NCBI GenBank assembly: GCA_945787635.1
Contig: CALZIK010000003.1
Location: 1-64,000, forward strand
DNA from: Thermoanaerobaculia bacterium
GTDB lineage: Bacteria; Acidobacteriota; Thermoanaerobaculia; Multivoradales; JAHEKO01
Length of the DNA: 64,000 nt
Reading direction: 5' to 3'
Position 1 is the first letter of the stretch; each line of letters begins with the position of its first letter. Positions 13,672 to 48,940 of the stretch are shown one piece after another. A program made the translations under genes and the position numbers. Under the pieces are notes generated by a model that was not told the DNA's origin, ran no database searches, and was given only the letters and a program-made list of their open reading frames with translations.

Positions 13672-14118
13672 ATGTGGCGCCAAACTCCAGAATCCGTTAC
13701 CGCGATACCGCTCCGACCCAGGTACGGCTCCAGCCCCGTTCGGCCTCCTCGCGACGAGCGTCGTGGGGACGAGCGCCAGGAGGTTCAGGGCACGATCTCG
13801 ATCGCCCCCGGCCACGAGGCGGCGCTGCTCAACGTCAGCGCCGGCGGCTTCGCCGTCGAGTCCGGCGAAAGTGTGCGGATCGGCGCCTTGTACCGGCTGC
13901 GGTGGTGGACCGCCGGAAGCTTGCGCCCGGTCTCGGCGGTCGCTCGGTGGAGCCGGCTAGCGGGCACCGAGAAACGCGGCGACGGCGACGTTGTCCCCCG
14001 CTTTCGAACCGGATTCGAGTTTGAGCAGCTCGCGACCGTCAAGCGGGCGTCAGCTGCGCCATGTCCGAGTCTCCCATCTCGAGCCCGCCCGGAAAGTATT
14101 CCAGCCAACGATTCGTGA
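13672..14118 (+). CDS. PilZ domain protein
   Basis: A 148-residue protein. RRGDERQEVQG (about residues 30-40) and LLNVSAGGFAVE (about residues 52-63) fit the RxxxR and (D/N)xSxxG motifs that bind cyclic di-GMP. VPRFRTGFEFEQL closes the domain at about residue 120. It is likely a small cyclic di-GMP receptor or adaptor. The last 80 bases overlap, tail to tail, the end of the UbiD gene. The start codon is uncertain because no strong ribosome site is seen. Confidence 0.6.
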   Translation: MWRQTPESVTAIPLRPRYGSSPVRPPRDERRGDERQEVQGTISIAPGHEAALLNVSAGGFAVESGESVRIGALYRLRWWTAGSLRPVSAVARWSRLAGTEKRGDGDVVPRFRTGFEFEQLATVKRASAAPCPSLPSRARPESIPANDS

Positions 14119-15856
14119 CTCGCTTGGCGATCTCGTCGGAGCAGAAGAGCTCGTCCGGAAAACCGGCCTTGGCTCTCGCGTCGATCACGATCGGCACTTG
14201 ATAGCTCAGGTGGTTTCGCACCACCTCGACTCCACTCGCATAGATGTCGGCAGCGGGCTCGAAACGCGTGAACGTCGTCCACAGGAAGTTGATCGAGCTG
14301 GCGACGGCGCGCTCCGGCTCTTCGGTGAGAACAACCAAGGGCCATTCGGCGAAGCCGGCGTGCCCGGCGACCCGGCGGGGAAGCTCCGGATCGTCTCGCT
14401 TGGCGGCGCCACCGACCACCAGGCAACCGCGACAAAAGGGCCTGGCAAAGGTGACACCCGAGGGCACTTCGGCAGCCGTGAGCTCCTCCGGGAGATGCCG
14501 CACCGGGTCCCCCAGACCCAGCCAGATTCCCTTCGAGCCCCGATTCACGACCGGGCCGGTGTAGTCGAGCGTATCCATCGAAAGGTTCGAAAACACGAAG
14601 AGGTCGGTTTCGACTCGGGTCCGCTCGAGGACGTGCTCGAGAGTCGCCTTGAAGTCGCGAAGATCCACGGTCCGGTCGGTGACCAGGAGGAATTTGGTCA
14701 GCGACAGCTGCCCTTCTCCGAGAATCCGAAAGGCGCTCGACATCGCCTCCCGCGCGTAGCGCTCACGAACGACCGCAGCTGCCAGCGAGTGATACCCGGT
14801 CTCGCCATACGACCAGAGATCGCGCACGCCGGGCATGACCAGCGGAAACAGCGGTGACAACAGCTCCTGCAGAAGGTCGCCGATGTAGAAATCCTCCTGG
14901 CGAGGCTTGCCCACCACCGTCGCCGGGTAGACCGCGTCCTTGCGGTGCGCCAGGTGCTCGACCTCGAAGACCGGATAGTCGTGCTCGAGAGAGTAGTAGC
15001 CGTAGTGGTCGCCGAACGGCCCCTCGGAGCGGCGCACCCTGGGCGGCACTATCCCGATCAGCGCGAACTCGGCCTCGGCGAGCAGCGGCAGCGGCCCGGG
15101 GCCGTCGCAAAGCGACAGCTTGCAGCCTTGAATCAGTGATGCGAGCATCAACTCGGGCACGTTCTCGGGCAACGGCGCAATCGCCGCGAGCATCGCCGCC
15201 GGCGGACCGCCGAGAAAGACATTCACCGGCAGCGGCTGATTGCGCTCTTCGGCCACCGCGTAGTGATAACCACCGCCTTTTCCGATCTGCCAGTGCATCC
15301 CGGTGGCGCGCGGTTCGTGGACCTGGAGCCGGTACATTCCGAGGTTGTGGCCCTTGCCCTCCGGGTGCTCGGTGTAGACCAGAGGCAGGGTGACGAACGG
15401 CCCGCCGTCTTCGGGCCAGGTGGTCAGGACCGGCAGCTCGCCCAGATCCACATTCGCGGTGACGTGGTCGAGCACCGGGCCACGAGAGCTTCGTCGGGCA
15501 CCGACCTTCAGCAGGCCGCCGAGCACCGAGCGGTGACGCCAGAGCGTTCCCGCCGAAGGCGGCAGGAGGGTCTCCGCCATCCGAACCGCTCCCTCGATCA
15601 GGCGAAAGGGATGCCGGCCGAAGGCCATCTGCGCCCGGCGAGCGCTGCCGAAGAGATTGGTCACGCAGGGAAACCTCGAGCCTCGAACCCGGCGAAACAG
15701 GAGAGCCGGGCCCTCGACCGCGATGACCCGCCGGTGGATCTCGGCGATCTCGAGCCGAGGATCGACTTCCGCGTCCACCTCCACCAACTCGCCCTCCCGA
15801 CGCAGAGCATCGAGGAAGCTGCGCAGGTTCCTGAAGGTGTCTATTCGTGGAGCCAT
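14039..15856 (-). CDS. UbiD-family (prenylated FMN) decarboxylase
   Basis: 605 residues, within the usual 480-610. NLRSFLDALRREGELVEVDAEVDP opens the family. NLGMYRLQVHEPRATGMHWQ and FGDHYGYYSLEHDYPVFEVEH contain the cofactor-binding and Glu-Arg-Glu region of UbiD enzymes. They decarboxylate aromatic or unsaturated acids with prenylated FMN, often in quinone biosynthesis. It is the last gene of the isoprenoid/hopanoid block, 46 bases after squalene synthase, so a quinone ring carboxylate is a plausible substrate. No UbiX (prFMN maker) is in the window. Confidence 0.85.
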   Translation of the reverse strand: MAPRIDTFRNLRSFLDALRREGELVEVDAEVDPRLEIAEIHRRVIAVEGPALLFRRVRGSRFPCVTNLFGSARRAQMAFGRHPFRLIEGAVRMAETLLPPSAGTLWRHRSVLGGLLKVGARRSSRGPVLDHVTANVDLGELPVLTTWPEDGGPFVTLPLVYTEHPEGKGHNLGMYRLQVHEPRATGMHWQIGKGGGYHYAVAEERNQPLPVNVFLGGPPAAMLAAIAPLPENVPELMLASLIQGCKLSLCDGPGPLPLLAEAEFALIGIVPPRVRRSEGPFGDHYGYYSLEHDYPVFEVEHLAHRKDAVYPATVVGKPRQEDFYIGDLLQELLSPLFPLVMPGVRDLWSYGETGYHSLAAAVVRERYAREAMSSAFRILGEGQLSLTKFLLVTDRTVDLRDFKATLEHVLERTRVETDLFVFSNLSMDTLDYTGPVVNRGSKGIWLGLGDPVRHLPEELTAAEVPSGVTFARPFCRGCLVVGGAAKRDDPELPRRVAGHAGFAEWPLVVLTEEPERAVASSINFLWTTFTRFEPAADIYASGVEVVRNHLSYQVPIVIDARAKAGFPDELFCSDEIAKRVTNRWLEYFPGGLEMGDSDMAQLTPA

Positions 15857-17014: not shown

Positions 17015-17836
17015 TCACCTGCCCGCGCGCACTCGGGTTCCCGAGGTGGCCCCACCGAGTGCGCCGGAAAGCACGCCTTGCGACCGACCGTCGAGAATCC
17101 ACGAAGACACTCCCCAGCCGGCCAACTCGAGCGCCGTTTCCAGGCGATGCCTCATGCCACCCGTGACGTCTCGAACGCCCTCGCCGGCGTCTCCCGCCCG
17201 AAGCGTCGAGAGGACCTGACGGGCGTTTTCACACCGTATCTCTCGAATCGGCTGGCCGGATTCGTCCAGAACGCCGTCCGTGGCGCCCAGCCAGTAGGCG
17301 CCGCGGATCTTCCAGCCACCCGCCAGCAGAGGCGGAACTATCGAGAGGAAAACGCTCTCGGTCGAAACGATTCGGGCGCGACGATCGCCGTCCAGAACCA
17401 CATCGCCGTAGGTAACCGGCGTGAGGCCCGCGTCGAGAGCCGTCAGCACGGGCGCCGCCGCGATCCGATCGAGCCGGCCGCCTCTCGAGGTCATGAAGCT
17501 ACCCGGCGCCAGGGAAAACGGTGTCATCCCGGCTTCGAGAAGGGCCGCGATGACCTCGCGATGGAGACGGGCTGCGGCGTCCTGCGTCCGCGCCACGGTG
17601 TCGAGCGCGGGGCGGTCCCCGTCGGCCGAGCTCCAGTCGCCCTCGGCTGCCGCCGCGTGGCCGAACGAGCCGCTGCCGTGCCCGAGCACGACCATGATCC
17701 CGGGAAGCGAAGTGATCGCGTGCAACTCGGCCGCGAGGCGCCGCACGACTTCTGATCGGACCGCCTCTGAGCTCGCCTTGTCGGTGATCAGGCTGCCGCC
17801 GAGCTTGACCAGGGCGAGCTGAGCGCGCGCGCTCAC
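17015..17836 (-). CDS. isopentenyl phosphate kinase
   Basis: Phosphorylates isopentenyl phosphate to IPP with ATP. From GTG 17836 (273 residues) the protein starts SARAQLALVKLGGSLITDK and has GHGSGSFGH at 52-60. His60 is where the family's catalytic His lies, and VSTESVFLSIVPPLLAGG follows. The GTG overlaps the decarboxylase stop as GTGA, so translation is coupled. The open frame extends upstream, but the shorter start fits the family length of about 250-270. In the alternative mevalonate route this enzyme follows a phosphomevalonate decarboxylase, as the gene order here suggests. Confidence 0.9.
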   Translation of the reverse strand: MSARAQLALVKLGGSLITDKASSEAVRSEVVRRLAAELHAITSLPGIMVVLGHGSGSFGHAAAAEGDWSSADGDRPALDTVARTQDAAARLHREVIAALLEAGMTPFSLAPGSFMTSRGGRLDRIAAAPVLTALDAGLTPVTYGDVVLDGDRRARIVSTESVFLSIVPPLLAGGWKIRGAYWLGATDGVLDESGQPIREIRCENARQVLSTLRAGDAGEGVRDVTGGMRHRLETALELAGWGVSSWILDGRSQGVLSGALGGATSGTRVRAGR

Positions 17837-18930
17837 CTGGACTGCCCCTCTCGGCTCTCGTCCGAAGGCGGGCCGAGGTGCTCGAAAGTCTGGAACGGTC
17901 CGGACCCAACTCGGTCGGGCAGCACGCGCTCGACCTCCGGCAGCTCGCCGAACGCCTCCGCGACCCGAGTCGCGCAAGCTGCCGGGCAGATCGCATGCAC
18001 GTTGGGGCCCGCGTCGATGGTCGCGTACACCGGGACCCCCTCGACGCGCAGATGCCGAATCGCCCATAAGACCGCGAAGGTGCCGCCCGTCCAGTAGTAG
18101 ATCGGTGGTCGTGACGACATTGCGACATGGTGCAGATCGACGGCCTCGGTCTCCAGGGTCTCTCCCAGCAACTCCATGTCGCGCTCCGCGATCGCCCGGC
18201 GCACGGTCTCGAGGCGCGCACCGAGCTCGCTCAGACGGGCCGCGAACCTGGGACTCGAGGGCGCGCGGCGGTGGCCATCTCGAGACGATGTCTTCTTGGC
18301 GCGCGAATCAACGACCGCGACGACATCGGCCAGATCCCAGTGGTCCGCCGCAGCCAGTTGGACGGCGGGTGCCTCGAAGTCGTCACCCCGGTCTTCGCTT
18401 CCACCGGCCTGTCCGTCTTCGCCGCCTTCTCCCGGCCACTCGACATAGCCTCCCAGGACCGATCGCGCGGCGGAACCCGAACCGCTCAGCCGCGCCAGAA
18501 CCGAGGCTTGCGCTGGAGTCGCCGGAGGCTTTGCCATGGCATGCCCGGCCGCGAGCGTCAGGGCCGCAAATCCCGATGCCGACGAGGCGATTCCCGCACC
18601 GGTCGGAAAGTTGTTCTCGGTCCAGACCCGACAACCGCCACCGAGGCCGGCCCGCGCTCGCAGAGCGCCGAGATGACTTCGCACTGGCTCGGCGAAGGCT
18701 TTGCTCGCGCGCTCGAACGGGCCGGCCGCGGACCGAAACCAGATCTCGTCCTCCGTCGAGGCGCGGTCGAAAACCACCGTGCATTTGGACGTGCAGCGCG
18801 ACAACGTCATCGAGATCGACGGATTACAGGGGAGCACGCGCCGTTCATCCCGGATTCCCCAGTACTTGATGAAGGCGATGTTCGAAGGCGCGACGAAGGT
18901 CGCGCGCCCCGGCTCTTCAAGCTCCGACAT
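17833..18930 (-). CDS. mevalonate-(di)phosphate decarboxylase, probably acting on mevalonate 5-phosphate
   Basis: GHMP-fold decarboxylase of 365 residues from ATG 18930. APSNIAFIKYWGIRDE (14-29), NNFPTGAGIASSASGFAAL (106-124) and TIDAGPNVHAIC with the catalytic Asp match diphosphomevalonate decarboxylase. In that enzyme the first motif ends KYWGK, where the Lys touches the diphosphate. Here it is Ile26. With isopentenyl phosphate kinase next door and no phosphomevalonate kinase in the block, I infer it decarboxylates mevalonate 5-phosphate to isopentenyl phosphate. An acidic Gly-rich insert lies at about 168-190. The start overlaps the mevalonate kinase end by 14 bases. Confidence 0.82.
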   Translation of the reverse strand: MSELEEPGRATFVAPSNIAFIKYWGIRDERRVLPCNPSISMTLSRCTSKCTVVFDRASTEDEIWFRSAAGPFERASKAFAEPVRSHLGALRARAGLGGGCRVWTENNFPTGAGIASSASGFAALTLAAGHAMAKPPATPAQASVLARLSGSGSAARSVLGGYVEWPGEGGEDGQAGGSEDRGDDFEAPAVQLAAADHWDLADVVAVVDSRAKKTSSRDGHRRAPSSPRFAARLSELGARLETVRRAIAERDMELLGETLETEAVDLHHVAMSSRPPIYYWTGGTFAVLWAIRHLRVEGVPVYATIDAGPNVHAICPAACATRVAEAFGELPEVERVLPDRVGSGPFQTFEHLGPPSDESREGQSR

Positions 18931-20041
18931 CGGCCACCTTCCCGCCCACATGAGATTGCAAACCCTCGACTCCCAACGCGGCCGAGAGTGCCCGGTACCC
19001 CCCCAGGATCGAGCTCGGTTCTCCCGCCGCCTCAGGAGGCCAGAACACGAGCAGGCTGCCACCGCCCGACCCGGAGAGCGTGCCCGCTCCCGAGATCTTG
19101 GCGGCTCCACCGGCCGCCTCGACGCGCCGAATCGCCCCCTGGACCGCGTCCGGGACCACCCCGATGGCCTCGAGGCACCGCTCGAACTCCCGGACCCCGG
19201 CGAGAACCCTCGGCCAGGCGACTCGGTCGCGGGAGAGAGCGCCGGCGAAGACTCGAACCGCGGCCCCCATCCGATCCAGTATGTCGGCGAATCGGCCGGG
19301 ATCCCGTTCGCGCCGGGCTCGCACCTGCGTCACCACCTCGCCCGTGGACTCGACCGGCGCGCCGGTGTCGAAGACACGCACTCCGTCCAGAAACCACCCC
19401 GGCTTACTGAGCTCCTCGACCTCGAGCGCGTCTCGGCCGCGGGTCAGGAGCAGGAGACCGCCCCTCATCACGGTGGTGTGGTCGATACCCGAGGGCCGGC
19501 CATGCTGTCGCTTCTCGACCTCCAAGGCGACGTCGGCGACCGCGCCGGCCGACTCCTGCTCGCCGGCCAACGACGCCATCAGAGCCGCCGCCACCGCCAC
19601 CGCCACGGCCGCGGAGCTGCCGAAACCCGAGCCCACCGGTAGATCTGATCGAACCGACAAACTGAGTGCTGGCCTGGTCGAGACCTTGGACCGGCGCTCC
19701 AAGAACCACAGAGTTTCGGCCATCGCGATCTTGACCACGCCCGCTTCGTCGCCGGCACGTAGCGCCGAGAAGCTCTCCGGCGAAGGTCTTTTCTCGTATG
19801 CCTGCCAAAGCGCTCGCCGCCGGTCGCCGAACTCCAGAACTTCGGGCCAAGAGCAACTCTCGCGAAGCTGGAAGTCCTCGAGCTCGAGCTGCAGCTCGAC
19901 TCCCGGCACCGGCGGGCCGACCCGCGCCAGGGTTCGCAGCCCCAACGAGGCCACAACCGCCGGCACGCCATACACCGCCGCGTGCTCGCCCATCAGAATG
20001 AGCTTTCCAGGTGCGCTGGCCTCGGCTTCGAGTGCGTGCAC
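18917..20041 (-). CDS. mvk: mevalonate kinase
   Basis: ATP-dependent 5-phosphorylation of mevalonate. From GTG 20041 the protein has 374 residues. ASAPGKLILMGEHAAVYG near the start is GHMP motif 1, DLPVGSGFGSSAAVAVAVAAAL is the ATP-binding motif 2, HGRPSGIDHTTVMRGG contains the catalytic Asp, and KISGAGTLSGSGGG is motif 3. The start was chosen as the nearest in-frame codon before motif 1, 16 bases after the HMG-CoA reductase stop; the open frame continues upstream inside that gene and is not used. Part of the mevalonate block. Confidence 0.88.
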   Translation of the reverse strand: MHALEAEASAPGKLILMGEHAAVYGVPAVVASLGLRTLARVGPPVPGVELQLELEDFQLRESCSWPEVLEFGDRRRALWQAYEKRPSPESFSALRAGDEAGVVKIAMAETLWFLERRSKVSTRPALSLSVRSDLPVGSGFGSSAAVAVAVAAALMASLAGEQESAGAVADVALEVEKRQHGRPSGIDHTTVMRGGLLLLTRGRDALEVEELSKPGWFLDGVRVFDTGAPVESTGEVVTQVRARRERDPGRFADILDRMGAAVRVFAGALSRDRVAWPRVLAGVREFERCLEAIGVVPDAVQGAIRRVEAAGGAAKISGAGTLSGSGGGSLLVFWPPEAAGEPSSILGGYRALSAALGVEGLQSHVGGKVADVGA

Positions 20042-20057
20042 GGGGTGGGGCTCTGGC

Positions 20058-21341
20058 CTAGGCGGAACCGTCTCCGGAAATCGGCCCACGCCCGAGCTGT
20101 TCGTGGGCGCGCGCCAGGTCGCTCGACGTGAAGGCGGCCAGCAACGACAGCTCGCCGGCCAGCACGGTCGCGCCGAGGATCTCGGCCAGCCGGGTGACCG
20201 CGGCGCCGGGCTCGCTCGCATCCAGCTCGATACCGAGCAGCGCGAGAGCTTCAGCCTGCGTGTCGAGGGCCGTGCCGCCGCCGACCGCGCCCAGTGGCAG
20301 GTCCGGCATGTAGACCGACGCGACCACTCCATCCGCTCCGCGCGCTTCGATGGTGGTTACCCCCATCGATCCCTCGACGACCTGAGCGACATCCTGCCCG
20401 GTGGCGACGAAGAAGGCGGCCAGAATATTGGCGAAATGGGCGTTGAATCCCATCGCCCCAGCGGCGATCGACCCCAGAAGGTTTTTTCGGTATTGAACCT
20501 CCACCAGATCTTGGGCCGTGGTCTTGAGGCATCGGTCCAGGACCTCGCTCGCCAATCCGACCTCCGCCCAGACACGTTTGCCGCGGCCTTCCAGGAAATT
20601 GACCGCCGAGGGCTTTTTGTCGACGCAGAAGTTGCCCGACAATGCCAGACAGGGCAAGCCGGTTTCGGGCTCGATCAGATCCCGAATCACCCGATCGCAC
20701 GCCACCGTCGCCATGTTCATGCCCATCGCGTCGCCGGTCAAGAACCGAAAACGCAGGTAGATCGAGCTGCCGAAGACCTGGGGCCGGATGTCGCGCAGCC
20801 GGAGATGATTGCTGGTGGACTCGGTGATCTCGCGAATGCGCTCTTCGTTTCGTTCGATCCAGCTCAGAAACTCGCGGGTCTCGTCGATGCCGCCCGAGCG
20901 AAACACCGGCGCCCGAGTCATTCCCACGTCTTCGACCCGAACCACGGCGCCGCCGGACTCCCGAATCGCTCTGCAGCCTCGGTTCGCGCTGGCGATCAGC
21001 GCGCCTTCGGTTGTCGCCAGAGGTACATAGACGTCCTCTTCCGGCGAGACGAAGTGCCCTCGCACCGAGAGTGGGCCGATGACACCGACCGGCACTTGTG
21101 TGGCGCCGATGAAGTTTTCGCAGTGACGGCTCGCCGCGCGCGCCGCGTCGAGCGAGAAATCGCCGGTCCGCTCGAGCGATACGCCGCGCATGCGCTCGAG
21201 CGCTTCGCGGCGCACCCGCGCTGCTTCGGCAGCGGACAGGTTCGAGGGCAGCTCGTGCATGCGTCGCTTGCCGGCGGCCAGATCGTCGATCAACTTCTCG
21301 AGGTCTTCGAGATCCGGTGCCAAGCGTCCCGGCTCAGCCAT
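20058..21341 (-). CDS. hydroxymethylglutaryl-CoA reductase
   Basis: Reduces HMG-CoA to mevalonate with NADPH. 427 residues. RHCENFIGATQVPVGVIGPL binds substrate, PLATTEGALIAS carries the catalytic Glu, GDAMGMNMATVA the catalytic Asp region, NFCVDKKPSAVNFLEGRG the Lys, and RAHEQLGRG near the C-terminus aligns with the catalytic His. The motif set resembles class I/archaeal-type enzymes without a membrane anchor. The ATG overlaps the end of the IPP isomerase gene. HMG-CoA synthase is not in the window. Confidence 0.95.
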   Translation of the reverse strand: MAEPGRLAPDLEDLEKLIDDLAAGKRRMHELPSNLSAAEAARVRREALERMRGVSLERTGDFSLDAARAASRHCENFIGATQVPVGVIGPLSVRGHFVSPEEDVYVPLATTEGALIASANRGCRAIRESGGAVVRVEDVGMTRAPVFRSGGIDETREFLSWIERNEERIREITESTSNHLRLRDIRPQVFGSSIYLRFRFLTGDAMGMNMATVACDRVIRDLIEPETGLPCLALSGNFCVDKKPSAVNFLEGRGKRVWAEVGLASEVLDRCLKTTAQDLVEVQYRKNLLGSIAAGAMGFNAHFANILAAFFVATGQDVAQVVEGSMGVTTIEARGADGVVASVYMPDLPLGAVGGGTALDTQAEALALLGIELDASEPGAAVTRLAEILGATVLAGELSLLAAFTSSDLARAHEQLGRGPISGDGSA

Positions 21342-22431
21342 TGCGTCCTCCTCGTGCCGATGGCGATCGCGAATCGAGATGGTGAAGCTCGACCGCTTGA
21401 AGCGCGGCGATGGAGGGCGCTCCCACGCAGAACATCGCGATCCTGAGCTCTCGGGCGACCCTCGCCGCGCACTCCGTGGCCTTGTCCGATGAAGTATTCG
21501 CGCCTTCGAGAAACAGCTGCGCCAGGCCGACGATGTCGGCGCCCATCGCGATCGCCTTGGCGACGTCCAGACCGTTGCGTACTCCGCCGCTGCCGATGAT
21601 GGTCAGACCGCCCAGAGTCCGCAGCTCACGGATGGACCGTGGCGTCGAGACTCCCCAGCCGGCGAAGATCTCGCCGAGGCCAAAGTCACGCGCGCGGCTG
21701 GCCTCGATCCGGGCCCAACTCGTGCCGCCGAGGCCGGCGGTGTCCAGAATCGTGATCCCGGCGGCCTTCAAGCGCCTGGCAGCCTCGAAGGACAGTCCGC
21801 AGCCGATCTCCTTGGCCAGCACCGGCACCTCCAACTCGGAGGCGATCTCGCCCATCTTGTCCGCCAGCCCGGCGAAGTTGCACTGTCCTTCGGGCTGAAT
21901 CGCTTCCTGCAGCGGATTGAGATGGAAGACCAGCCCGTCGGCTTCGATCATCTCGACCGCCTGGCGGCACTCGTCGAGGCCGAAACCGTAGTTGAGCTGG
22001 ACGGCGCCGAGGTTGGCGAGGATCGGCACGTCCGGGGCCAGGGCACGAATCTGGAAGCTCTCGGCCTGGCTCGGATCCTCGATCGCCTTTCGTTGCGATC
22101 CGACTCCGATGGCGATTCCGGATGCCTGAGCCGCAACGGCCAAGTTCCGGTTGATGCGGGTCGCCTCCCCGGTGCCCCCGGTCATGCATGAGATCAGGAG
22201 CGGCGCTCGCAGACGATAGCCCAGGAACTCGACCGTCAGATCGACGGCGGCCATATCGATCTCGGGCAACGCCTGATGATCGAAATAGTAGCGATCGAAA
22301 AAACGCGCGGACAGCTGCATGCTCTCGTGGAGTGCGAGCTCGATGTGCTCGGCCTTTCGGTCGCGCAGCTCACGCCGATCGGATCGATCGCGTCGACTGC
22401 CTTGGGGACGCTCTTCGGATGGCAGGCTCAA
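21334..22431 (-). CDS. fni: type 2 isopentenyl-diphosphate isomerase
   Basis: FMN-dependent IPP/DMAPP isomerase, 365 residues. RKAEHIELAL near the start, PLLISCMTGGTGEATRINRNLA, GIAIGVGSQRKAIEDP, FHLNPLQEAIQPEGQCNF, KEIGCGLSFEAARRL and GSGGVRNGLDVAKAIAMGAD are the flavin and substrate motifs of Fni. It supplies DMAPP for the prenyl synthase upstream. The ATG overlaps the prenyl synthase stop as ATGA. The pairing of a type 2 isomerase with the mevalonate pathway is usual. Confidence 0.95.
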   Translation of the reverse strand: MSLPSEERPQGSRRDRSDRRELRDRKAEHIELALHESMQLSARFFDRYYFDHQALPEIDMAAVDLTVEFLGYRLRAPLLISCMTGGTGEATRINRNLAVAAQASGIAIGVGSQRKAIEDPSQAESFQIRALAPDVPILANLGAVQLNYGFGLDECRQAVEMIEADGLVFHLNPLQEAIQPEGQCNFAGLADKMGEIASELEVPVLAKEIGCGLSFEAARRLKAAGITILDTAGLGGTSWARIEASRARDFGLGEIFAGWGVSTPRSIRELRTLGGLTIIGSGGVRNGLDVAKAIAMGADIVGLAQLFLEGANTSSDKATECAARVARELRIAMFCVGAPSIAALQAVELHHLDSRSPSARGGRNG

Positions 22432-23537
22432 TACTGTCGGTCCCGCAGGAATTGGATCAGACCGCTGAAAAAGGTAGCGGCTTGCGGTTCGAGGCCGAGC
22501 CCATCTGTGGCGGCTGCTGCCCGCTCGAGCCGCCGCTCGATCATGCTCTCGACCTCCGCCTTCGCTCCCGAGCGCTCCACGATGCGGCGAACCTCGCGCA
22601 GCTCTTCGGAGGTGACGTCCCTATTGCCCAAAGCTGCCCGCAGCAGCTCGCGACTCGGCTCGTCGCAACGCTCGAGCGCCTGCTGCACCAGAACCGTGTA
22701 CTTGCCTTCGGCGATATCGGAATCGACCGACTTGCCCACCGCCTCGCTGGCCCCGAACACGCCCAGAAGATCATCCTTGAGTTGAAACGCCTCGCCCAGA
22801 GCACGGCCGTAGGCACGCAGGCCCTCGATCGTGGTGCCCGGCGCCTTGGCCGCCAGAGCGCCCAGCTCGATGGGCCGCTCCACGCTATAGCGGCCGGATT
22901 TGAGCCGCAGCACCTTGAGCAGATCCTCCTTGCACCAGCCCGAACGGTACGGCGCGGTCATCTCCAGATACTGCCCGAGCACGACTTCCTGGCACATCGC
23001 GGCAAAGCACCGGCTGACCCCGTCGAGCCTGAGGGCCGACTGGGCCTCGAGCATCAATTCCACGGCATAGGAGTGCGCGAGGTCTCCAAGCAGGATCGCC
23101 ACCGATTCGCCGTGCCGCTCGGAGCGCCCCGGCCAGGCCAGTTGCCGGTGATTGGATTCGAACAGAACATGAATCGAGGGGCCGCCCCTCCGGAGAGCCG
23201 CGCCGTCCATGATGTCGTCGTGGATCAGCAGGTAGGTGTGCAGAAGCTCCGTCGATATCGCGAGCGGCAGGATCAGTTTTCCGTCGCCGCCGCCACAGGC
23301 CCGGTAGGCGAAGTACACCAGCGCCGGCCGGAGACGCTTACCCCCGCGTGCCACGAACTCCCGCAGCCTAGAGGTCAGCTCGACCGTCTCCGGGGCCTCG
23401 GCAATCGCCTCTTTCTGCTTGCGATCGAGCCATCCGAGCAAGGCGGGCTCGAGCAACTCCAGAAACCCGCCGAGGTCGCCGGGCTCAGTCACGGCACGGG
23501 ACTCAGCATTTTGAGAGGTCTTGAGGAGGGTCGTCAT
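22428..23537 (-). CDS. short-chain polyprenyl diphosphate synthase (probably FPP)
   Basis: 369 residues, all-helical trans-prenyltransferase. GGKRLRPALVY binds IPP. LLIHDDIMDGAALRRGGPSIH holds the first Asp-rich motif DDIMD (107-111), without the two-residue insert of bacterial type II FPP synthases. FQLKDDLLGVFG is the second Asp-rich motif. A Tyr sits five residues before the first motif, a position where bulky side chains limit chain length, so FPP is the likely product, feeding squalene synthase in the same block. Product length is inferred, not shown. Confidence 0.85.
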   Translation of the reverse strand: MTTLLKTSQNAESRAVTEPGDLGGFLELLEPALLGWLDRKQKEAIAEAPETVELTSRLREFVARGGKRLRPALVYFAYRACGGGDGKLILPLAISTELLHTYLLIHDDIMDGAALRRGGPSIHVLFESNHRQLAWPGRSERHGESVAILLGDLAHSYAVELMLEAQSALRLDGVSRCFAAMCQEVVLGQYLEMTAPYRSGWCKEDLLKVLRLKSGRYSVERPIELGALAAKAPGTTIEGLRAYGRALGEAFQLKDDLLGVFGASEAVGKSVDSDIAEGKYTVLVQQALERCDEPSRELLRAALGNRDVTSEELREVRRIVERSGAKAEVESMIERRLERAAAATDGLGLEPQAATFFSGLIQFLRDRQY

Positions 23538-23567: not shown

Positions 23568-25070
23568 TCATCTTATCGAGCCCGAGCCTTGGACGCGGAC
23601 CGAGACCCGCGGTTCGACTCGAGGCGAGGCATTCTCGACGCCGGCCACGGAAGTCGAGACCGGTCGCAGCGAAACCAGTGGCAGGAGAAACTCCGACAGA
23701 CGCAAGCCATTGCCGGTCGCCTGACTGGGCACGTCGGTGAGAACGAACCCCACGGAAGCGCCCCGGGAGAGCCCTCCGTGGGTCCATCGGAGCCGTCCCC
23801 CGGTCAGCCGTGCGGCACGCTCGGTCTTGCGGGCTCCGTACATGTAACCCGGGGCCACCGAGCAAATGACCGTTGCCGGATTTTCGACCAACTCGAAGCC
23901 CCGGGCGAGCCGGCGCAGCGCATCCGGGTACAGCTCGTTCTTCGAGGCCTCGAACCAGTCCCGGTCCGAATACCAGTCGCCCGCAGAGCCCCGCGCCGCC
24001 GCGTCGTCGAGTCGCTGAGCTACCCCTTGGTAGAACAGTGGGTCCCCCGTTACCGGCCGGTACGCCCAGTCGTCACCTCGCCTTGCAATCACCGCCGCGC
24101 CGTCTCTCGACGCCACCCACAGCTTGCCTTCGGACCGGTAGGAGCACAGCTCCACTCCCTCGGTCGCCACCAGGATCGCCGTCAGACGCGGCGCAAGCTC
24201 GCCCTGTGCGTAGGCTTCGAAGCTCGAGACCAGCCCATAGGGCGTCAGCACGACATCCGTGGGCCGTTCTAGCCGCGCGCTTTTCCTGAGACCCGCCTTG
24301 CGCAGATCGGTCCGGATGGCCGGCAGCACATTGACCAGGGGATCCCCGCCGTCGATACCGTGATCGGAAAAGACCACGACCTTGAAATCGTCGCCCTCGG
24401 CGCGCGCCGCGCGAATCGCGCGACCCAGCTCGCGAAGAGTCTCATCGAGCGACTCCGGGCCTTTCAGGTGCGCCGCGGTGTCGGTGGTCTCGATGTAGGC
24501 AAAGAAGTTGCGCTGCTGCGACTCCAGGAATGCGGACAGCGCGCTTCGGACCCGGTTCTCGCTCGCGCCCGCCGGCCGCAGACTGGCTAGAGCGCTTCGA
24601 GCGACGCCCTTCTTGCTCCACTGGAAGAACTCGCGCCAGGGAAACTCGATTCGAAAGTAGCTGATCAATCCCCCACCTCGGGGACGGTCTTCGCTCCAGT
24701 CAAAGAATCGGGCTTCGTAACCCGGTGAAGCCTGAAGGCCCAGAGGCCCGAGCGCGTCCGCAAGCGCCACCGTGGTCGTCGATGGAAAGCTGCTGATTAG
24801 AGGCACCGGCTGGCCCAACTCCTCGAAGAGCTCGGGCGCAAACCCTCGCCTCTCGAGGGCCGCCAGCGTTCCATAGGGAACCGCATCCAGAAGCAGAAAC
24901 AGCGTTCGCTCGGTGGTCTCGGCCGCGCCAAAGAGCGGCTCGGTGGCGAGCGGGCTCACAAACACCACCAGGAGCGTGGCGATGGCGCACCAGCGGCCGC
25001 GGCGCGGGCCAGCTATCGGCTTTCTCGACCGAGAATCGAAGCCAGCGCCTGTTCCAGGGCTCGAGAACAT
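23568..25070 (-). CDS. secreted alkaline-phosphatase-superfamily hydrolase in hopanoid block
   Basis: 500 residues with a signal peptide (WCAIATLLVVFVSPLATEPLF) and the phosphodiesterase/phosphatase fold. RTLFLLLDAVPYG has the first metal Asp, SSFPSTTTVALADALG a Thr where the nucleophile should lie, ETTDTAAHLKG an Asp/His site, and VVFSDHGIDGGDP the second metal site. Its start overlaps the end of hpnG by 58 bases, and the prenyl synthase follows after about 30 bases, so it is co-transcribed with hopanoid genes. A natural guess is removal of phosphate from a hopanoid side chain or an isoprenoid phosphate. No substrate can be read from the sequence. Confidence 0.7.
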   Translation of the reverse strand: MFSSPGTGAGFDSRSRKPIAGPRRGRWCAIATLLVVFVSPLATEPLFGAAETTERTLFLLLDAVPYGTLAALERRGFAPELFEELGQPVPLISSFPSTTTVALADALGPLGLQASPGYEARFFDWSEDRPRGGGLISYFRIEFPWREFFQWSKKGVARSALASLRPAGASENRVRSALSAFLESQQRNFFAYIETTDTAAHLKGPESLDETLRELGRAIRAARAEGDDFKVVVFSDHGIDGGDPLVNVLPAIRTDLRKAGLRKSARLERPTDVVLTPYGLVSSFEAYAQGELAPRLTAILVATEGVELCSYRSEGKLWVASRDGAAVIARRGDDWAYRPVTGDPLFYQGVAQRLDDAAARGSAGDWYSDRDWFEASKNELYPDALRRLARGFELVENPATVICSVAPGYMYGARKTERAARLTGGRLRWTHGGLSRGASVGFVLTDVPSQATGNGLRLSEFLLPLVSLRPVSTSVAGVENASPRVEPRVSVRVQGSGSIR

Positions 25071-25771
25071 TGTCCGACTCTATCGCGCAGTTCCAGAAGC
25101 TCCAGCATCAGCCTCGGGCGACGAAACGTCGCGCCGAGCAAGCCGACTCGCGAGAGTGAGCCGTCCGGGGCCAGAGCCCGGTTCAGCTCGGGCGGCAGAT
25201 CGTCGGCCAGCCGATCGCTCACGATGCGCAGAAGGGCGAACGGAAGCCCAGCCTCGCTGGCTGCCGTTGCCCAGGCATAGGACTCCATGTCGATCGTCGC
25301 GTTCTGCTGCTCGATCCGGCTGGCGAGCTCGAGCTTCTCGGCCGCGGTCGAGAGAATCCGCCGCCCGGTGAGCACCGTTCCCACCCTGGCCCCGGAAAGC
25401 GCCAGGGCGCGGCTTTGCCAGGACGATGCCGGAATCGAGAGGCTGCGCGCCGGGTCCTCCACGAGAGCGACGTGCTCGGCCACCAGGAGATCGCCTACCG
25501 AGAGGTCCGCCGAAAGCGCACCTCCCAACCCGACGAAGATCAGCGCGGCCGGCGCATCGCGATCGAGAATCGCGGCGACTCCGGCTCGCGCTGCAGGCAT
25601 CCCAACGCCGGTACACGACAGATTGATCGGCCGGCCGGCCACCCTCCCTCGCCAACCAGCCCCTGAGCCGGCTCGCCGCCGCAAACCGTGACGGCGGCGC
25701 AGATCGCGAACTTCTTCGGGAAGGGCCGCCACCACCGACAGCATCGGGTCCGACGCTAGTGTTCGGGACAC
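25013..25771 (-). CDS. hpnG: hopanoid-associated phosphorylase HpnG
   Basis: Purine-nucleoside-phosphorylase fold, about 243-252 residues. MLSVVAALPEEVRDLRR opens the domain. SCTGVGMPAARAGVAAIL and LIFVGLGGALSADLSVGDLLVAE form the nucleoside and phosphate site, and ATIDMESYAWATAASEAGLPFALLRIVSD carries the Glu that binds ribose. HpnG removes adenine from adenosylhopane, the product of HpnH, on the way to bacteriohopanetetrol. It lies between hpnA and the phosphatase-like gene. Start is GTG 25771 or ATG 25744; the ATG matches the domain edge better. Confidence 0.87.
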   Translation of the reverse strand: MSRTLASDPMLSVVAALPEEVRDLRRRHGLRRRAGSGAGWRGRVAGRPINLSCTGVGMPAARAGVAAILDRDAPAALIFVGLGGALSADLSVGDLLVAEHVALVEDPARSLSIPASSWQSRALALSGARVGTVLTGRRILSTAAEKLELASRIEQQNATIDMESYAWATAASEAGLPFALLRIVSDRLADDLPPELNRALAPDGSLSRVGLLGATFRRPRLMLELLELRDRVGQCSRALEQALASILGRESR

Positions 25772-25780
25772 TAGGCCAGC

Positions 25781-26770
25781 CTATCTCGCGACGTAGCCGT
25801 GTGCCCGAAACCAGTCCACCGCCCGTGCCAGCGCCTCGCGGATCGGCGTTTGCGGAAGCCCGAGCTCGCGAACGGCCTTGTCGGCGGAGAAATACATCTT
25901 GTGCCGGGCCAGGCGGGCGGCATCGAGCGCCACTCGTGGTTCGCCGCCAAACAGGCGCGCTCTGGCGGTGTCGAGACCCGCGAAGGCAATCGGGATCACA
26001 TGGGGCAGCTTGATCTTCGGCGCCGCGAGCCCGGTCAAACTCGAAAGAGCGGCGAAGATTGCCGCGAGACTCAGGTTCTCATGCCCAAGTATGTACTTTT
26101 GGCCGATCCGGCCTCTTTCGGCCGCCAGCACGTGCCCCACCGCCACGTCTCGAACATCGATCAAGTTGAGCCCGGTCTCGACGTACGCCGGGGTGCGTCG
26201 CTGCAGGAAGTCGAGGATGATCCGGCCTGTCGGCGTCGGCTTGAGATCTGCCTCGCCGACCGGCGTGGAGGGGTTGACCACGACGATCGGCACGCCGCGC
26301 TCGGCCCATTGCTCGACCACCCGCTCGGCCAGGAACTTCGACCGCTTGTAGTGGCCGACCATGTCGTCGAGGGCGACCGGTGTTTGCTCGTCGGCCAGGC
26401 CGCCGTCCGCTCGAAGACCCAATGCCCCAACCGAGCTCGTGTAGACGACTCGTTCGACATGTGCCTGCCCTGCCGCCTCCAGGATCCGTCGGGTACCCTC
26501 GACGTTCGCCTGGTACATCGTTTCGGGACGGGGCACGTATAAGCGGTAGTCGGCGGCGCAATGGTAAAGCTCCCGGCAGCCGTCGAGCTCCGCCCGAAAC
26601 GAGTTCGGTTCCACGAGGTCTCCCACGACCACCCTTGCCGAGGTGCCTTCGAGATTGCGCCGATCACTCCCCGGTCGCACCAGGCAGACCACCTCACGTC
26701 CGCAGTCCTCCAGAACCCGCAAGACATGACCACCCACGAATCCGGAGGCGCCGGTCAAAAACGCCTTCAT
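25781..26770 (-). CDS. hpnA: hopanoid-associated sugar epimerase HpnA
   Basis: Short-chain dehydrogenase of 329 residues. KAFLTGASGFVGGHVLRVL is the Rossmann start (GxxGxxG), YHCAADYRLYV and VYTSSVGALGL follow, and the catalytic pair is Tyr-x3-Lys in GHYKRSKFLAE. ADYRLYVPRPETMYQANVEGTRR is typical of HpnA proteins, found in hopanoid clusters and thought to act on the polar side chain, though its exact reaction is unsettled. Directly upstream of hpnG (10-base gap) and downstream of hpnH. Confidence 0.9.
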   Translation of the reverse strand: MKAFLTGASGFVGGHVLRVLEDCGREVVCLVRPGSDRRNLEGTSARVVVGDLVEPNSFRAELDGCRELYHCAADYRLYVPRPETMYQANVEGTRRILEAAGQAHVERVVYTSSVGALGLRADGGLADEQTPVALDDMVGHYKRSKFLAERVVEQWAERGVPIVVVNPSTPVGEADLKPTPTGRIILDFLQRRTPAYVETGLNLIDVRDVAVGHVLAAERGRIGQKYILGHENLSLAAIFAALSSLTGLAAPKIKLPHVIPIAFAGLDTARARLFGGEPRVALDAARLARHKMYFSADKAVRELGLPQTPIREALARAVDWFRAHGYVAR

Positions 26771-26818: not shown

Positions 26819-27820
26819 CTATCCGAGAAGATTCCAGGCGGCCATGCGCGCCATGTCGACCGGACTCTTGGGCAGGTCCTTGACCACCGAGGCCTCGAAA
26901 CCCGAGTGCATCGCACAATTCTGGCAGAGGTCGTCCTCGCGGGACTCCCAGTAGTCCCAGTCGGTCGCGTTCCAGAACTCCTCCCAAGTGTCGTAGTACT
27001 GCTTGCCGATGAGGTAGCAAGGACCCTTCCATCCCAACGGCGTAAAGGTCACCGTGCTCCAGGGGGAGCATTTGTAGTCCCGTAATCCGGCGGCGAACTC
27101 GAGGAACATCGGCGTCGTGTGCAGACGGTGTTTTTTCGAGATCTCTAGCACCCGTTTGAACTTGTCTTCGGTGTCCTTGCGGGTCATGAAAATGTCGGCA
27201 TGGACAGACTCGTACTGGTAGCCCGGCGAGATCATCATGCCGTCGATACCGATCGAATCCATCAACCGGCACAGCTCTTCGACCTCTTCGATCTTGGTCT
27301 CTTTGAAGATCGTCGTGTTGGTGACCACGTGATAGCCGAGCCGCTTCGATTCCTTGATCATCTCGATCGCCTTGTCGAAGACCCCGTCTCGCGCGCAAAC
27401 GTAATCGTGGGTCTCGCGCATGCCGTCGAGGTGAACGTTGATCGACAAGCGCTTGTTCGGGGGAATCTTGCCGAACACGGTCTCTTCCATCAACAGGGCG
27501 TTGGTGCAGAGATAGATATGGCGCTTGCGTTCGATGATGCCCTCTATGAGCTCCGGCAGCTCGGGGTAGACCGTGGGCTCGCCGCCACAGATCGACACGG
27601 CCGGTGCGCCGCACTGGTCCGAGGCTTGAAGGCAGCGCTCGACCGAAAGCCGATCCTTCAGCTTGCCCGTATGCCGCTCCGTCGCGCACCCGATACAGGC
27701 CAGGTTGCAGGTGTAGAGAGGCTCGAGCATGAACACGAAGGGATAGCGACGGTTGCCCTGGACCGCCTGCCGGACCTGATGACGGATCATGTCCGTCGTG
27801 ATGTGAACCGGGAATCTCAT
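26819..27820 (-). CDS. hpnH: adenosylhopane synthase HpnH (radical SAM)
   Basis: Adds the 5'-deoxyadenosyl group of S-adenosylmethionine to diploptene, giving adenosylhopane, the first step of hopanoid side-chain extension. 333 residues. YTCNLACIGCATERH carries the CxxxCxxC cluster ligands (Cys38, 42, 45). SICGGEPTVYPEL is the SAM-binding GGE motif, and INVHLDGMRETHDYVC is a family hallmark. It sits directly after the cyclase gene (16 bases). Together with HpnG and HpnA this shows the organism makes extended, not only C30, hopanoids. Confidence 0.95.
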   Translation of the reverse strand: MRFPVHITTDMIRHQVRQAVQGNRRYPFVFMLEPLYTCNLACIGCATERHTGKLKDRLSVERCLQASDQCGAPAVSICGGEPTVYPELPELIEGIIERKRHIYLCTNALLMEETVFGKIPPNKRLSINVHLDGMRETHDYVCARDGVFDKAIEMIKESKRLGYHVVTNTTIFKETKIEEVEELCRLMDSIGIDGMMISPGYQYESVHADIFMTRKDTEDKFKRVLEISKKHRLHTTPMFLEFAAGLRDYKCSPWSTVTFTPLGWKGPCYLIGKQYYDTWEEFWNATDWDYWESREDDLCQNCAMHSGFEASVVKDLPKSPVDMARMAAWNLLG

Positions 27821-37406: not shown

Positions 37407-38303
37407 TCAGTCGTCGAGCGCGCCGGCGGTCTCGTCGAGGAAACGGGCCGTCGCCATGGCACGCTCGTTCCAGAAGCCGGTGATCGGCGCAAACGCCTCT
37501 GGCCAGCCGCGCAGGAGCTTCGCTTGACGCCTCGCTTCCGCTGCGAGCCAACCGAGGGCCTCCTTCGGAGCCTGGCCGAGAAGGCTCTTGAGCACAAACC
37601 CGCGCTCTCCCTTGCGCGAACCCAGCTCGAGATCTCGCGCGCACCGTTCGAGATCCGACCGCGTCAAGATGCAGCCGGTTCGCACCGGAGCGATCAGCGC
37701 GCGCAAGAACTCCTCGCCAGCCATCTCCGCCGCATCGCCCAGCGGCTCCGCCTCGCGCAAATGAAGAGGCAAGAGCTCGGGCGCCGAGAACCGCTTCGCT
37801 TCCTCGGTGAGCGCCATTCGAAGAAGCTCGCTCCACTTGGCGTAGAACCCCTCGTCGAGCTCGGCGACCCGACCTAGATAGACCGGTAGCCAGCTCGCGA
37901 GGTGCTCCCAGAAAAACGCTCCGCGTGCGTGTCGCCAGCGAGACCGGGCCTCGTCATCGGGCGCGTCACCCTCTCGATCGGCGAGCTCCGCGTAGGCAGC
38001 CAGGAGAACCGCCAGGTGGTCCGGCTCCGCGACCGGCGTCTCTCCCAACACGCGCCAGAAGCCCGCGATCCGATCGCGCGCCTCGCCTCCCAACATCCCT
38101 TCGACGCCCAGATAGACCGAAGCATACGGGTAGAGCTGAAATTCGAAGAGATCGGTGTAGGAGAAGGCCGACGGGACCCCCCCCAGACCGAGCGCCTCGA
38201 TGACGACTTCGGCGCCGTTGCGAGTGGGTTCGCAGACGACCGCGAGAGACCGAAACAGCTCACCTTCTCGGGCGCTTGCTGGTTCCCTTCGCGCGCGATT
38301 CAT
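37407..38303 (-). CDS. TorD/DMSO-reductase-type molybdoenzyme chaperone
   Basis: All-helical protein of 298 residues. LFRSLAVVCEPTR opens the chaperone domain, WEHLASWLPVYLGRV and the following helices contain the EHxxxWxP-like motif of TorD/NarJ proteins. The C-terminal part is longer than in classic TorD (about 200). It would guard insertion of the molybdenum cofactor into the catalytic subunit encoded immediately upstream (30-base gap). The context makes it a dedicated chaperone for the SoeA-like enzyme. Confidence 0.82.
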   Translation of the reverse strand: MNRARREPASAREGELFRSLAVVCEPTRNGAEVVIEALGLGGVPSAFSYTDLFEFQLYPYASVYLGVEGMLGGEARDRIAGFWRVLGETPVAEPDHLAVLLAAYAELADREGDAPDDEARSRWRHARGAFFWEHLASWLPVYLGRVAELDEGFYAKWSELLRMALTEEAKRFSAPELLPLHLREAEPLGDAAEMAGEEFLRALIAPVRTGCILTRSDLERCARDLELGSRKGERGFVLKSLLGQAPKEALGWLAAEARRQAKLLRGWPEAFAPITGFWNERAMATARFLDETAGALDD

Positions 38304-38333
38304 GCTCGAGGCAACTCGGAAGACACTTGTACG

Positions 38334-41264
38334 CTAGCGCCCGACAACCGGCTCCGGCAGCTTGTAGGCCTTGGCCACAGGCTTGACCGGGCGCACCAGC
38401 CAGGCCGGGCGCCGGGTGCCATCGGGCGAATGGTCCATCGCCGAGCGGGTCTTGGCGAGCCAGTCCTTGAAGATCTGGTGCGACTTCTCGATATCCACCG
38501 AGATGTCACCGTACCTGTCGCCGCGCGCTGCCTTCTTGACTCGCACCGCCTGATGCCAGCAGTGCATACCGGAGATCGGGTCGGGATGGACCGGGAAGGT
38601 CAGGTTCTGGTGCACGCCGACGTCGGTCCACCAGATCCGCGACGTGTCGGGATCGCTCGACGCGTACGGGCCGGCGCCTTTCTTGCGCCGGATCGCCCAG
38701 TCGGAGCCGGTGTGGTCGAGCGACACGGTGGCCATCAACTGGCGTTGTGCGTTGACCGCGCCGCTAGAGGGCTCGTTGAGCTTCCAGCGGCCCATGTGAT
38801 GGGAGCAGGCGACGACCTCGGGCTTGATGCCCTCGGTCACCCAGGCCTTGACCACGAAGTAGCCGGTGTGGGTCTCGACCCGCACCAGGTCTCCGGTGCG
38901 CACCCCGATCTCGGCCGCCTTCCGGGTGTGTAGCCAAAGCGGGTTGGTGTGGGCGATCTCGTCGAGCCATTTGGCGTTGGCCGATCGGGTGTGGATCTGG
39001 ACCGGGAGACGGAACGTCGAGATCAAGCACATCTCGTCCGGCGCCATGTTCTCGGGATGCACGTGGCTCTTGATGTAGGTCGGAATCGCGTACTCGCCCC
39101 ATCCCCACGCGGCCAAGGTCGGCGAATAGAACTCGAGCTTGCCCGAGGGCGTCGGGAAACCCTTGAGGACACGATCGCCGACTTGGACGCCCGCGAAACG
39201 TCGGCCTTCGGCGTCGCCGGGTGGCGCCCCGGTCGGGGCCAGATTGACCGGTGCTGGCGCCTTCGCCCGCGAAAAGACCCGGCCGTGAGCGTCTACGACC
39301 GTGTCTTCGAGCTCCGCGGCCGGCACCTCCCGCTCGTACACCGGTCCGACGTCGCGCTCGACCTCGAACGCGCCGTAGCGGCGCATGTACTCGAGCGGCT
39401 TCAAGCCCTCGGCCGCGGCCTTTTCGGGCAGTCCCGGAACCGAGTTCTCGAAGAGGAAACGGTAGTACTCCTCCACAGTCAGCCGCGCGCCGGGCCGTTC
39501 CTTCGACTCGACGAACGGCCGGATACCGAGCTCGCCGTCCGGATCGATCCGCCAGGAAAGCTCGAGCCAGAACTCGTTTTCTTCCCAGACCTCCCCGGGG
39601 TTGGTGTGGCGGGTGTCGCCGACCGACTCGCCCAACCGCTCGCGCGCCGCCCGCATCACCGGCTGCCGGAAGCCGATCCACTGGGCGTCGTGAGTCTCGT
39701 AGGAATGGGTGTCGTGCCGTTCGGACGAGTGCCCCATCGGCAGGATGTAGTCGGCGAAGTAGGCGGTCTCGTTCCAGGTCGGCGTGAGCGCCACGTGGAG
39801 GCCGGTCTTCGCCTCGTCGGTCAGCATCTCGATCCAGGAGAAGCCATCCGGGTTGGTCCACACCGGGTTGTAGACCCGGCTGAAGTAGGTGTCGAGCTTG
39901 CCGCGGCCGTCTTTGACCAGATGCGGCAGCAGAAACGACGTTTCGTACATGGTGAGCGGATACTCGATCGGCCAGGTGAGCTCACTCCAATACTCGGGAT
40001 GGCGCGGCAGGTGAATCGGCCGCGGCACGAACTTGTTCCAGGCATTCGGATAGGTGCCGCCGGGAACCGCGATCGCGCCCATCAAGGCGTTCAAGAAAAA
40101 CAGCGTACGCGCGACCTGCCATCCCCCTTCGTTGGCGGAGCTCGCGCTTCTCCAGTTGTGGGTGGATAGCCGGGTACCGGCGGTAGCCACGGTCTCGGCG
40201 ACCCGGCGCAGTGTCTCGACGTTGACGCCGGACTCCTGCGCCGCGAACTCGAAAGTGTAGCCCTCGTATTCGGCCTTCAACATCCGCTCGAAGCTCTCGA
40301 AGGTGGCTTCGAGACCCGGATGGGTGGCCTCGAGGTACTCCTTCCAATTCCACCAGCGCTCGACGTATTCGCGGTTGTAGAGATCGTTCTGAATCAGATG
40401 ATTCGCAATCGCCAGCATCACCGCGGCCTCGGAGCCCGGTTGCGTCGCGAGCCAGAAATCGGCATGGGTGGCGGTGTTCGACAGCCGGGTGTCGAGAACG
40501 ACGAGCTTGGCGCCGCTTTTCTTCGCCTCCATGATCCGCTGGGCGTGCGGATTGAAGTAGTGACCGGTCTCGAGGTGGGAGCTGATCAGCAGGATCACCT
40601 TGGCGCGGGCGTGGTCCGGGCTCGGCCGGTCGATGCCGCACCAGAACTGATAGCCGGCGCGGGCTCCCGAGGAGCAGATGTTGGTGTGCGAGTTGTGACC
40701 GTCCACGCCCCAGGCGGCCATCACCCGCTCGGTGAAGCCGTCCTCTCCCGGGCGGCCGACGTGGTACATGATCTCCCGCTGTCGGCCTTCTCGCATGGCC
40801 TTCGCGATTCGTAACGCAATGTCGTCGAGGGCCTCGTCCCAGCCCACTTGCACCCATTTGCCCTCGCCGCGCTTTCCGGCGCGCTTGAGCGGGTGGAGGA
40901 TGCGATCGGGATCGGTGATCTGATTCAAGGTCGCCGGACCCTTGGCGCAGTTGCGGCCGCGCGAGCCCGGGTGCTCCGGGTTGCCCTCGAACTTGCGCAC
41001 TTCGAGAGTGTCCTTGTCGATGTAAGCGAGGAGTCCGCAGGCCGATTCACAGTTGAAACAGGTCGTCGGAATCAACATGTAGCGCTTCTCGACCCGCTTC
41101 GGCCAGGACTTCGAGTCGAGCTCGACCCAGTCGTCCCAGCGCTCCTTGGGCGGGAAGGACGCGAGATGGATTCGGCTCGCTCCCGGGTAGAAGGTCTCGC
41201 CGCGCGCTTCGGTCTCCCGCCGTGCGGCGCTGACGCGCTCGTTCAACTTCTTCAAATCGGTCAT
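38334..41264 (-). CDS. soeA: SoeA-like molybdopterin sulfite dehydrogenase catalytic subunit
   Basis: 976 residues, DMSO-reductase family. CFNCESACG plus a fourth Cys in SRGRNCAKGP (Cys69, 72, 76, 106) bind the N-terminal 4Fe-4S cluster. HTNICSSGARAG has the likely molybdenum-ligand Cys197. No twin-arginine signal precedes it, so it should face the cytoplasm. That is as known for SoeABC and unlike periplasmic PsrA/PhsA. ATG 41264 was chosen over an upstream start because GGAG precedes it. It would oxidise sulfite to sulfate and pass electrons through the fused B-C subunit to quinone. The sHdr cluster next door supports this reading. Tetrathionate, thiosulfate or polysulfide reductase remain alternatives. 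Confidence 0.8.
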   Translation of the reverse strand: MTDLKKLNERVSAARRETEARGETFYPGASRIHLASFPPKERWDDWVELDSKSWPKRVEKRYMLIPTTCFNCESACGLLAYIDKDTLEVRKFEGNPEHPGSRGRNCAKGPATLNQITDPDRILHPLKRAGKRGEGKWVQVGWDEALDDIALRIAKAMREGRQREIMYHVGRPGEDGFTERVMAAWGVDGHNSHTNICSSGARAGYQFWCGIDRPSPDHARAKVILLISSHLETGHYFNPHAQRIMEAKKSGAKLVVLDTRLSNTATHADFWLATQPGSEAAVMLAIANHLIQNDLYNREYVERWWNWKEYLEATHPGLEATFESFERMLKAEYEGYTFEFAAQESGVNVETLRRVAETVATAGTRLSTHNWRSASSANEGGWQVARTLFFLNALMGAIAVPGGTYPNAWNKFVPRPIHLPRHPEYWSELTWPIEYPLTMYETSFLLPHLVKDGRGKLDTYFSRVYNPVWTNPDGFSWIEMLTDEAKTGLHVALTPTWNETAYFADYILPMGHSSERHDTHSYETHDAQWIGFRQPVMRAARERLGESVGDTRHTNPGEVWEENEFWLELSWRIDPDGELGIRPFVESKERPGARLTVEEYYRFLFENSVPGLPEKAAAEGLKPLEYMRRYGAFEVERDVGPVYEREVPAAELEDTVVDAHGRVFSRAKAPAPVNLAPTGAPPGDAEGRRFAGVQVGDRVLKGFPTPSGKLEFYSPTLAAWGWGEYAIPTYIKSHVHPENMAPDEMCLISTFRLPVQIHTRSANAKWLDEIAHTNPLWLHTRKAAEIGVRTGDLVRVETHTGYFVVKAWVTEGIKPEVVACSHHMGRWKLNEPSSGAVNAQRQLMATVSLDHTGSDWAIRRKKGAGPYASSDPDTSRIWWTDVGVHQNLTFPVHPDPISGMHCWHQAVRVKKAARGDRYGDISVDIEKSHQIFKDWLAKTRSAMDHSPDGTRRPAWLVRPVKPVAKAYKLPEPVVGR

Positions 41265-41312
41265 GAAACTGTTTCTCCGATCAAGATGGCCTCGTGGCAA
41301 ACGCGCCAAGCC

Positions 41313-48932: not shown

Positions 48933-48940
48933 GGGATTCG

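Follow-up and report, generated by a model that had tools for sequence, protein, structure and literature searches.

A predicted alternative mevalonate pathway inside a hopanoid gene cluster of an Acidobacteriota bacterium

Considering homology, active-site residues, gene context and enzyme absences together, the window (the whole stretch of 64,000 nucleotides analysed here) very probably encodes an alternative mevalonate pathway of the type known from haloarchaea and Chloroflexi, embedded in a hopanoid gene cluster of an uncultured Acidobacteriota bacterium. In the step order predicted as most likely on these grounds, HMG-CoA synthase and HMG-CoA reductase (HMGR) would supply mevalonate, which mevalonate 5-kinase (MVK) would convert into mevalonate 5-phosphate. 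A decarboxylase of the GHMP family would then use ATP to phosphorylate the 3-OH of mevalonate 5-phosphate and, by elimination of phosphate and CO2, release isopentenyl phosphate, from which isopentenyl phosphate kinase (IPK) would form IPP. The IPP would be channelled into hopanoids via type 2 isopentenyl-diphosphate isomerase (IDI-2), a prenyl synthase, squalene synthase and squalene-hopene cyclase. The preference of the decarboxylase for mevalonate 5-phosphate, and likewise the flux through the pathway, we infer from these same lines of evidence. This rarer route to IPP, the unit from which all isoprenoids are made, pairs a mevalonate-5-phosphate decarboxylase (MPD) with an IPK and has so far been described mainly from haloarchaea and Chloroflexi.

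Profile searches of the window confirm the adjacency that an earlier note on this DNA had claimed, placing HMGR, MVK, decarboxylase and IPK in that order on the minus strand at 17015-21341. Every flanking gene from 29948 down to 14039 lies on the same strand:

14039-15856, minus strand: UbiD-family decarboxylase; best match the menaquinone-type TIGR03701
15903..16919, minus strand: squalene synthase-like SQS_PSY protein; PF00494 114 bits, TIGR01559 the best NCBIfam match
17015..17836, minus strand: IPK; NF040647 125.5 bits, cut-off 120
17833..18930, minus strand: GHMP decarboxylase of 365 amino acids, predicted mevalonate-5-phosphate decarboxylase (MPD/PMD); TIGR01240 201.6 bits, MVD-like_N, MDD_C
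~18917..20041, minus strand: MVK with GEHAAVYG motif; TIGR00549 147.8 bits, cut-off 163
20058..21341, minus strand: HMGR, class I; TIGR00533 443.3 bits, above cut-off
21334..22431, minus strand: IDI-2; TIGR02151 373 bits, above cut-off
22428..23537, minus strand: short-chain polyprenyl (farnesyl-type) diphosphate synthase; PF00348 181 bits and several prenyl synthase models
25013..25771, minus strand: HpnG-like phosphorylase; TIGR03468 the best family, 105 bits, below cut-off
25781..26770, minus strand: HpnA hopanoid-associated epimerase; TIGR03466 465 bits, above cut-off
26819..27820, minus strand: HpnH-like radical SAM protein (DUF3463); PF11946 and PF04055
27837..29948, minus strand: squalene-hopene cyclase; TIGR01507 684 bits, above cut-off

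A phosphodiesterase-family protein is encoded between the HpnG-like gene and the prenyl diphosphate synthase gene. The cluster thus codes for the steps from HMG-CoA to the hopanoid skeleton, and HMG-CoA synthase is encoded elsewhere in the genome, on contig C54. The decarboxylase realistically starts at 18930 (ATG), IPK at 17836 (GTG) and MVK at 20041 (GTG); the coordinates given for these three in the open reading frame list extend upstream of those points. The decarboxylase stop and the IPK start overlap in GTGA, and the prenyl synthase and IDI genes in TTGA; the IDI/HMGR and MVK/decarboxylase overlaps amount to 8 nt and 14 nt, as expected of a predicted co-transcribed unit. The best named relatives are Acidobacteriota, including many Thermoanaerobaculia/Holophagales MAGs, and dozens of relatives share the order of the mevalonate genes, which excludes a chance grouping. 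In one of them (L042), with a decarboxylase 72% identical, the same order runs from squalene synthase and UbiD through prenyl synthase, and it is also found in loci labelled Gemmatimonadota, Planctomycetota and Salinibacteraceae.

TIGR00549 is the best family for MVK, yet its score stays below the cut-off; the PDB matches are almost all named mevalonate kinase. The top PDB matches of IPK are the isopentenyl phosphate kinases 3ll9, 7lnt and 8u0k, its NF040647 score is above cut-off, and the catalytic His of the GSFGH motif is retained. Assignment as a fosfomycin kinase of the FomA/FosC kind was dropped, as those models score far lower and FomA ranks far lower among the PDB matches.

The decarboxylase reads KYWGI at residues 22-26, compared to KYWGK in the diphosphomevalonate decarboxylases (MDDs) of S. 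aureus and E. faecalis. The Ile-for-Lys change on which the earlier note had relied is therefore real (Ile26); as a sign of specificity a single residue is insufficient, and it is a second position, His220, that brings agreement. By sequence, the closest solved structure is the MPD of Anaerolinea thermophila (226 bits in the PDB search; next group 148 bits). Its entries 6n0x, 6n0y and 6n0z are also the best by fold, with a TM-score of about 0.94 to the target at 40% identity, and in the structure search with the AlphaFold2 model of the decarboxylase (pLDDT 90, pTM 0.89) they reached E of about 1e-38, compared to about 1e-32 for S. aureus MDD. The title of entry 6n0z names the mutant N20K H194M, and according to the PDB record and alignments exactly those two sites set its sequence apart from the wild type; enzymes of this kind are described as convertible to diphosphate specificity by mutagenesis (PMC9254496, discussion). 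At both positions the window decarboxylase shows the non-diphosphate state expected of an MPD, namely a residue other than Lys in KYWGx (Ile26) and a His that corresponds to H194 (His220), and these residues point to a preference for mevalonate 5-phosphate. The catalytic Arg156 and Asp306 are retained, so the enzyme is not a mevalonate 3-kinase. The Thermoplasma-type pathway, involving a mevalonate 3-kinase without the catalytic Asp and no MVK, was ruled out because Asp306 is kept and MVK is present.

The residue motif by itself is not proof of an MPD. When judged by the residues tabulated for the Roseiflexus MPD, which include Arg83, Ala201 and Thr255 (PMC3857490 Table 4), the window decarboxylase agrees at Lys21 only. 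The Arg83 equivalent is absent (Val32), as it is in most IPK-adjacent relatives, and the equivalents of Ala201 and Thr255 are absent from an enzyme that has Ser151 and Ser216 there, with Val32, Ser151 and Ser216 MDD-like or neutral. Arg83 is not a universal MPD feature, because Dellas et al. give Arg/Thr for Chloroflexi at this position (PMC3857490). The A. thermophila MPD likewise has Ser at the last two positions, and the two-position test (26/220) is therefore the more informative. For the Roseiflexus MPD, diphosphate activity was not measurable (PMC3857490).

The genome was searched by protein families as a 203-contig draft, 97.7% complete, and the absences reported here rest on those searches. 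No phosphomevalonate kinase (PMK) is found in the mevalonate cluster, and in the genome PF04275 gave no match and TIGR01220 none at E<=10. TIGR01220 stays under its cut-off even in control genomes, and the broad PF00288 search thus weighs more. Its 10 matches correspond to five real GHMP proteins, namely a homoserine kinase, a galactokinase fragment, a sugar-kinase-like protein, MVK and the decarboxylase, with no IspE among them. The lack of an adjacent PMK that the earlier note had claimed is borne out, none of the three models yielded a PMK in the genome, and the genome-wide PMK search, set beforehand as the refuting test, was negative in this nearly complete draft. A GHMP protein encoded on contig C165 was weighed as a possible unrecognised PMK and judged unlikely, with just 15.8 bits for TIGR01220 and weak matches to mevalonate kinase and heptose/fucose kinase models; its N-terminus reads RVDFAGGTLDIWP compared to SAPGKLVLLGEYAV in the PMK adjoining a relative's decarboxylase. 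Of the MEP enzymes, the marker GcpE was not found in the genome, and Dxr and LytB gave sub-cut-off noise only. GcpE and TIGR01220 matches are likewise missing from two genomes of the same genus.

Across the taxonomic order the decarboxylase and IPK travel together. The decarboxylase occurs in 58 genomes of the order, with IPK above cut-off in 56 of them and an adjacent PMK in none (0/58); in G024 and G043 the other two, the IPK matches are split at contig ends. Elsewhere in the class the pairing is reversed, with an adjacent PMK in 11/11 and IPK in 0/11 decarboxylase genomes, and the PMK-adjacent decarboxylases there have Met in 10/10 loci examined and Lys where readable. This order-wide co-occurrence, set against the PMK-paired decarboxylases in the rest of the class, supports the decarboxylate-then-phosphorylate route proposed in the earlier note, in line with the absent PMK and the agreement of His220 with Ile26. 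In a residue table of 120 loci, the IPK-adjacent decarboxylases have His at 220 in 68/68 and neither Lys nor Arg at 26 in 67/68, where some loci are present in both collections searched so that the 68 are not all distinct organisms. The 19 PMK-adjacent decarboxylases show Lys/Arg at 26 in 12 of the 14 readable, and Met (10), His (5) or Gln (4) at 220. The exceptions to the residue rule are candidate-phyla-radiation (CPR) sequences, for example L098, L112 and L116, whose PMK assignments are weak (about 25% identity). Two of these loci, L098 and L116, have Val at the KYWGx position and adjoin a weak PMK-like gene, with IPK absent.

In the tree, the window decarboxylase falls into a fully supported clade of 52 rows, comprising Acidobacteriota/Gemmatimonadota and a few others, among or near the Chloroflexi MPDs; the PMK-adjacent class members cluster with the S. 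aureus and E. faecalis MDDs, apart from that clade. Support for the deep branches is only moderate and the tree was rooted at its midpoint, and no direction of transfer is therefore claimed. The tree shows about two joint changes of residue 26 and the PMK/IPK pairing, not enough events for a phylogenetically independent test. An actinomycete locus, L060 (Phytomonospora endophytica), groups with the Acidobacteriota clade and comprises HMGR, MVK and a KYWGL/His decarboxylase, with no IPK within about 8 kb.

The same evidence bears on three other explanations. A classical mevalonate pathway, with a diphosphate-acting decarboxylase supplied by an unrecognised or missing kinase and IPK serving merely in salvage, would agree with the TIGR01240 score above cut-off for what is NCBI's diphosphomevalonate decarboxylase model, with the MDD-like Ser151/Ser216, with the draft state of the genome, and with the organisms described by Dellas et al. 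(PMC3857490) that have IPK alongside a full classical pathway. We regard it as improbable, given that the genome offers no PMK candidate among its GHMP kinases or by PF04275 or TIGR01220, that an adjacent PMK is lacking in all 58 decarboxylase genomes of the order, and that the same class does contain clear PMK-adjacent decarboxylases of the Lys/Met type. Still less probable is a promiscuous decarboxylase that takes the mono- and the diphosphate, the order of the pathway being set just by the kinase present. Its residues are mixed, MPD-like at 26/220 and MDD-like at 32/151/216, and both ligands are bound in crystals of the A. thermophila MPD, whose wild type was crystallised with diphosphate as well (6n0y), meaning that ligand binding by this enzyme is not exclusive. 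Against this stand the invariant His220 of the IPK-adjacent relatives and their lack of Lys/Arg at 26 in all but one case, which suggest selection.

An archaeal-type route, in which a phosphomevalonate dehydratase and the neighbouring UbiD-family decarboxylase would yield isopentenyl phosphate, draws on the shared neighbourhood of the UbiD gene and IPK. It is hardly credible, for no AcnX-type phosphomevalonate dehydratase scored above cut-off in the genome, the UbiD protein matches the menaquinone type best and is near the cluster in just 3 of the 80 loci whose flanks were searched, and a full ATP-dependent decarboxylase is present. The MPD/IPK route thus stays the preferred reading.

There exist close parallels to characterised systems, along with distinct differences. 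With the pathway of Roseiflexus castenholzii and other Chloroflexi (Dellas et al. 2013, PMC3857490) the window system shares decarboxylase and IPK, the lack of a PMK and of a detected MEP marker, the non-Lys residue at KYWGx and a related decarboxylase clade; it differs in phylum, in being without equivalents of Arg83, Ala201 and Thr255, and in that its genes are contiguous with those for IDI, prenyl synthase, squalene synthase and hopanoid functions. The A. thermophila MPD has His at 194 (window 220) and non-Lys at 20 (window 26) in common with the window enzyme, which at about 40% identity has Ile for Asn at the first position and Val for Arg at the Arg83 equivalent. The haloarchaeal pathway, as in Haloferax volcanii, runs through its enzymes in the same order, MPD and IPK included, whereas the window decarboxylase scores only 123.7 on the haloarchaeal MvaD model NF040704, below the cut-off of 475. 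Within Acidobacteria, each of the 31 cultivated genomes is reported to have MEP genes (Sinninghe Damste et al. 2017, PMC5462960). The passages on the Moorea-associated subdivision 22 (SD22) genome Mor1 describe most mevalonate genes and no MEP genes, together with shc, hpnH and an unusual squalene synthase, and they do not assign the MPD/IPK route to it. That mention of Mor1 was the only one found in the open literature for Acidobacteria or Thermoanaerobaculia and mevalonate. No paper on the MPD/IPK route in Acidobacteriota was found there, key subscription papers lying outside this scope, and priority is not established.

The analysis has importance in suggesting that the MPD/IPK mevalonate route extends across an Acidobacteriota order, where standard annotation would label the enzyme a diphosphomevalonate decarboxylase and make the pathway look broken. 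Both versions appear to occur within one class (Lys/Met with PMK; non-Lys/His with IPK), and roughly half of the pathway carriers in the order also have an MEP enzyme: GcpE, from which alone MEP status was judged, is present in 30 of the order's 58 decarboxylase genomes and absent in 28, the window genome among them. The class could thus offer a natural system for understanding how a core pathway switches its order and why two are kept. In the GcpE carriers, for example genus g23 (G063-G083), the MEP pathway may exist beside the mevalonate pathway. As a tentative proposal, which we consider somewhat unlikely, the alternative mevalonate pathway of the order might have arisen or arrived as a dedicated squalene/hopanoid supply beside a working MEP pathway, later displacing the latter in several lineages, with pocket residues unlike those of Roseiflexus (small/hydrophobic 26, His220, no Arg83).

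Two further gene groups were noted in the window. On the minus strand at 37407-42893, genes for a molybdopterin oxidoreductase, a fused Fer4/NrfD protein and a nitrate-reductase-delta-like chaperone form a predicted complex iron-sulfur molybdoenzyme module. A cluster at 48659-63533 on the plus strand resembles the sHdr sulfur-oxidation/lipoate system, unusual company in an Acidobacteriota genome. It encodes HdrC-, HdrB- and HdrA-like proteins, a second Fe-S/CCG protein, EtfBA, a membrane Fe-S protein, two lipoate-protein-ligase-like proteins, LipS1 (over cut-off) and LipS2, together with a lipoyl-carrier (GcvH/LbpA-like) sequence near 59.7-60.2 kb.
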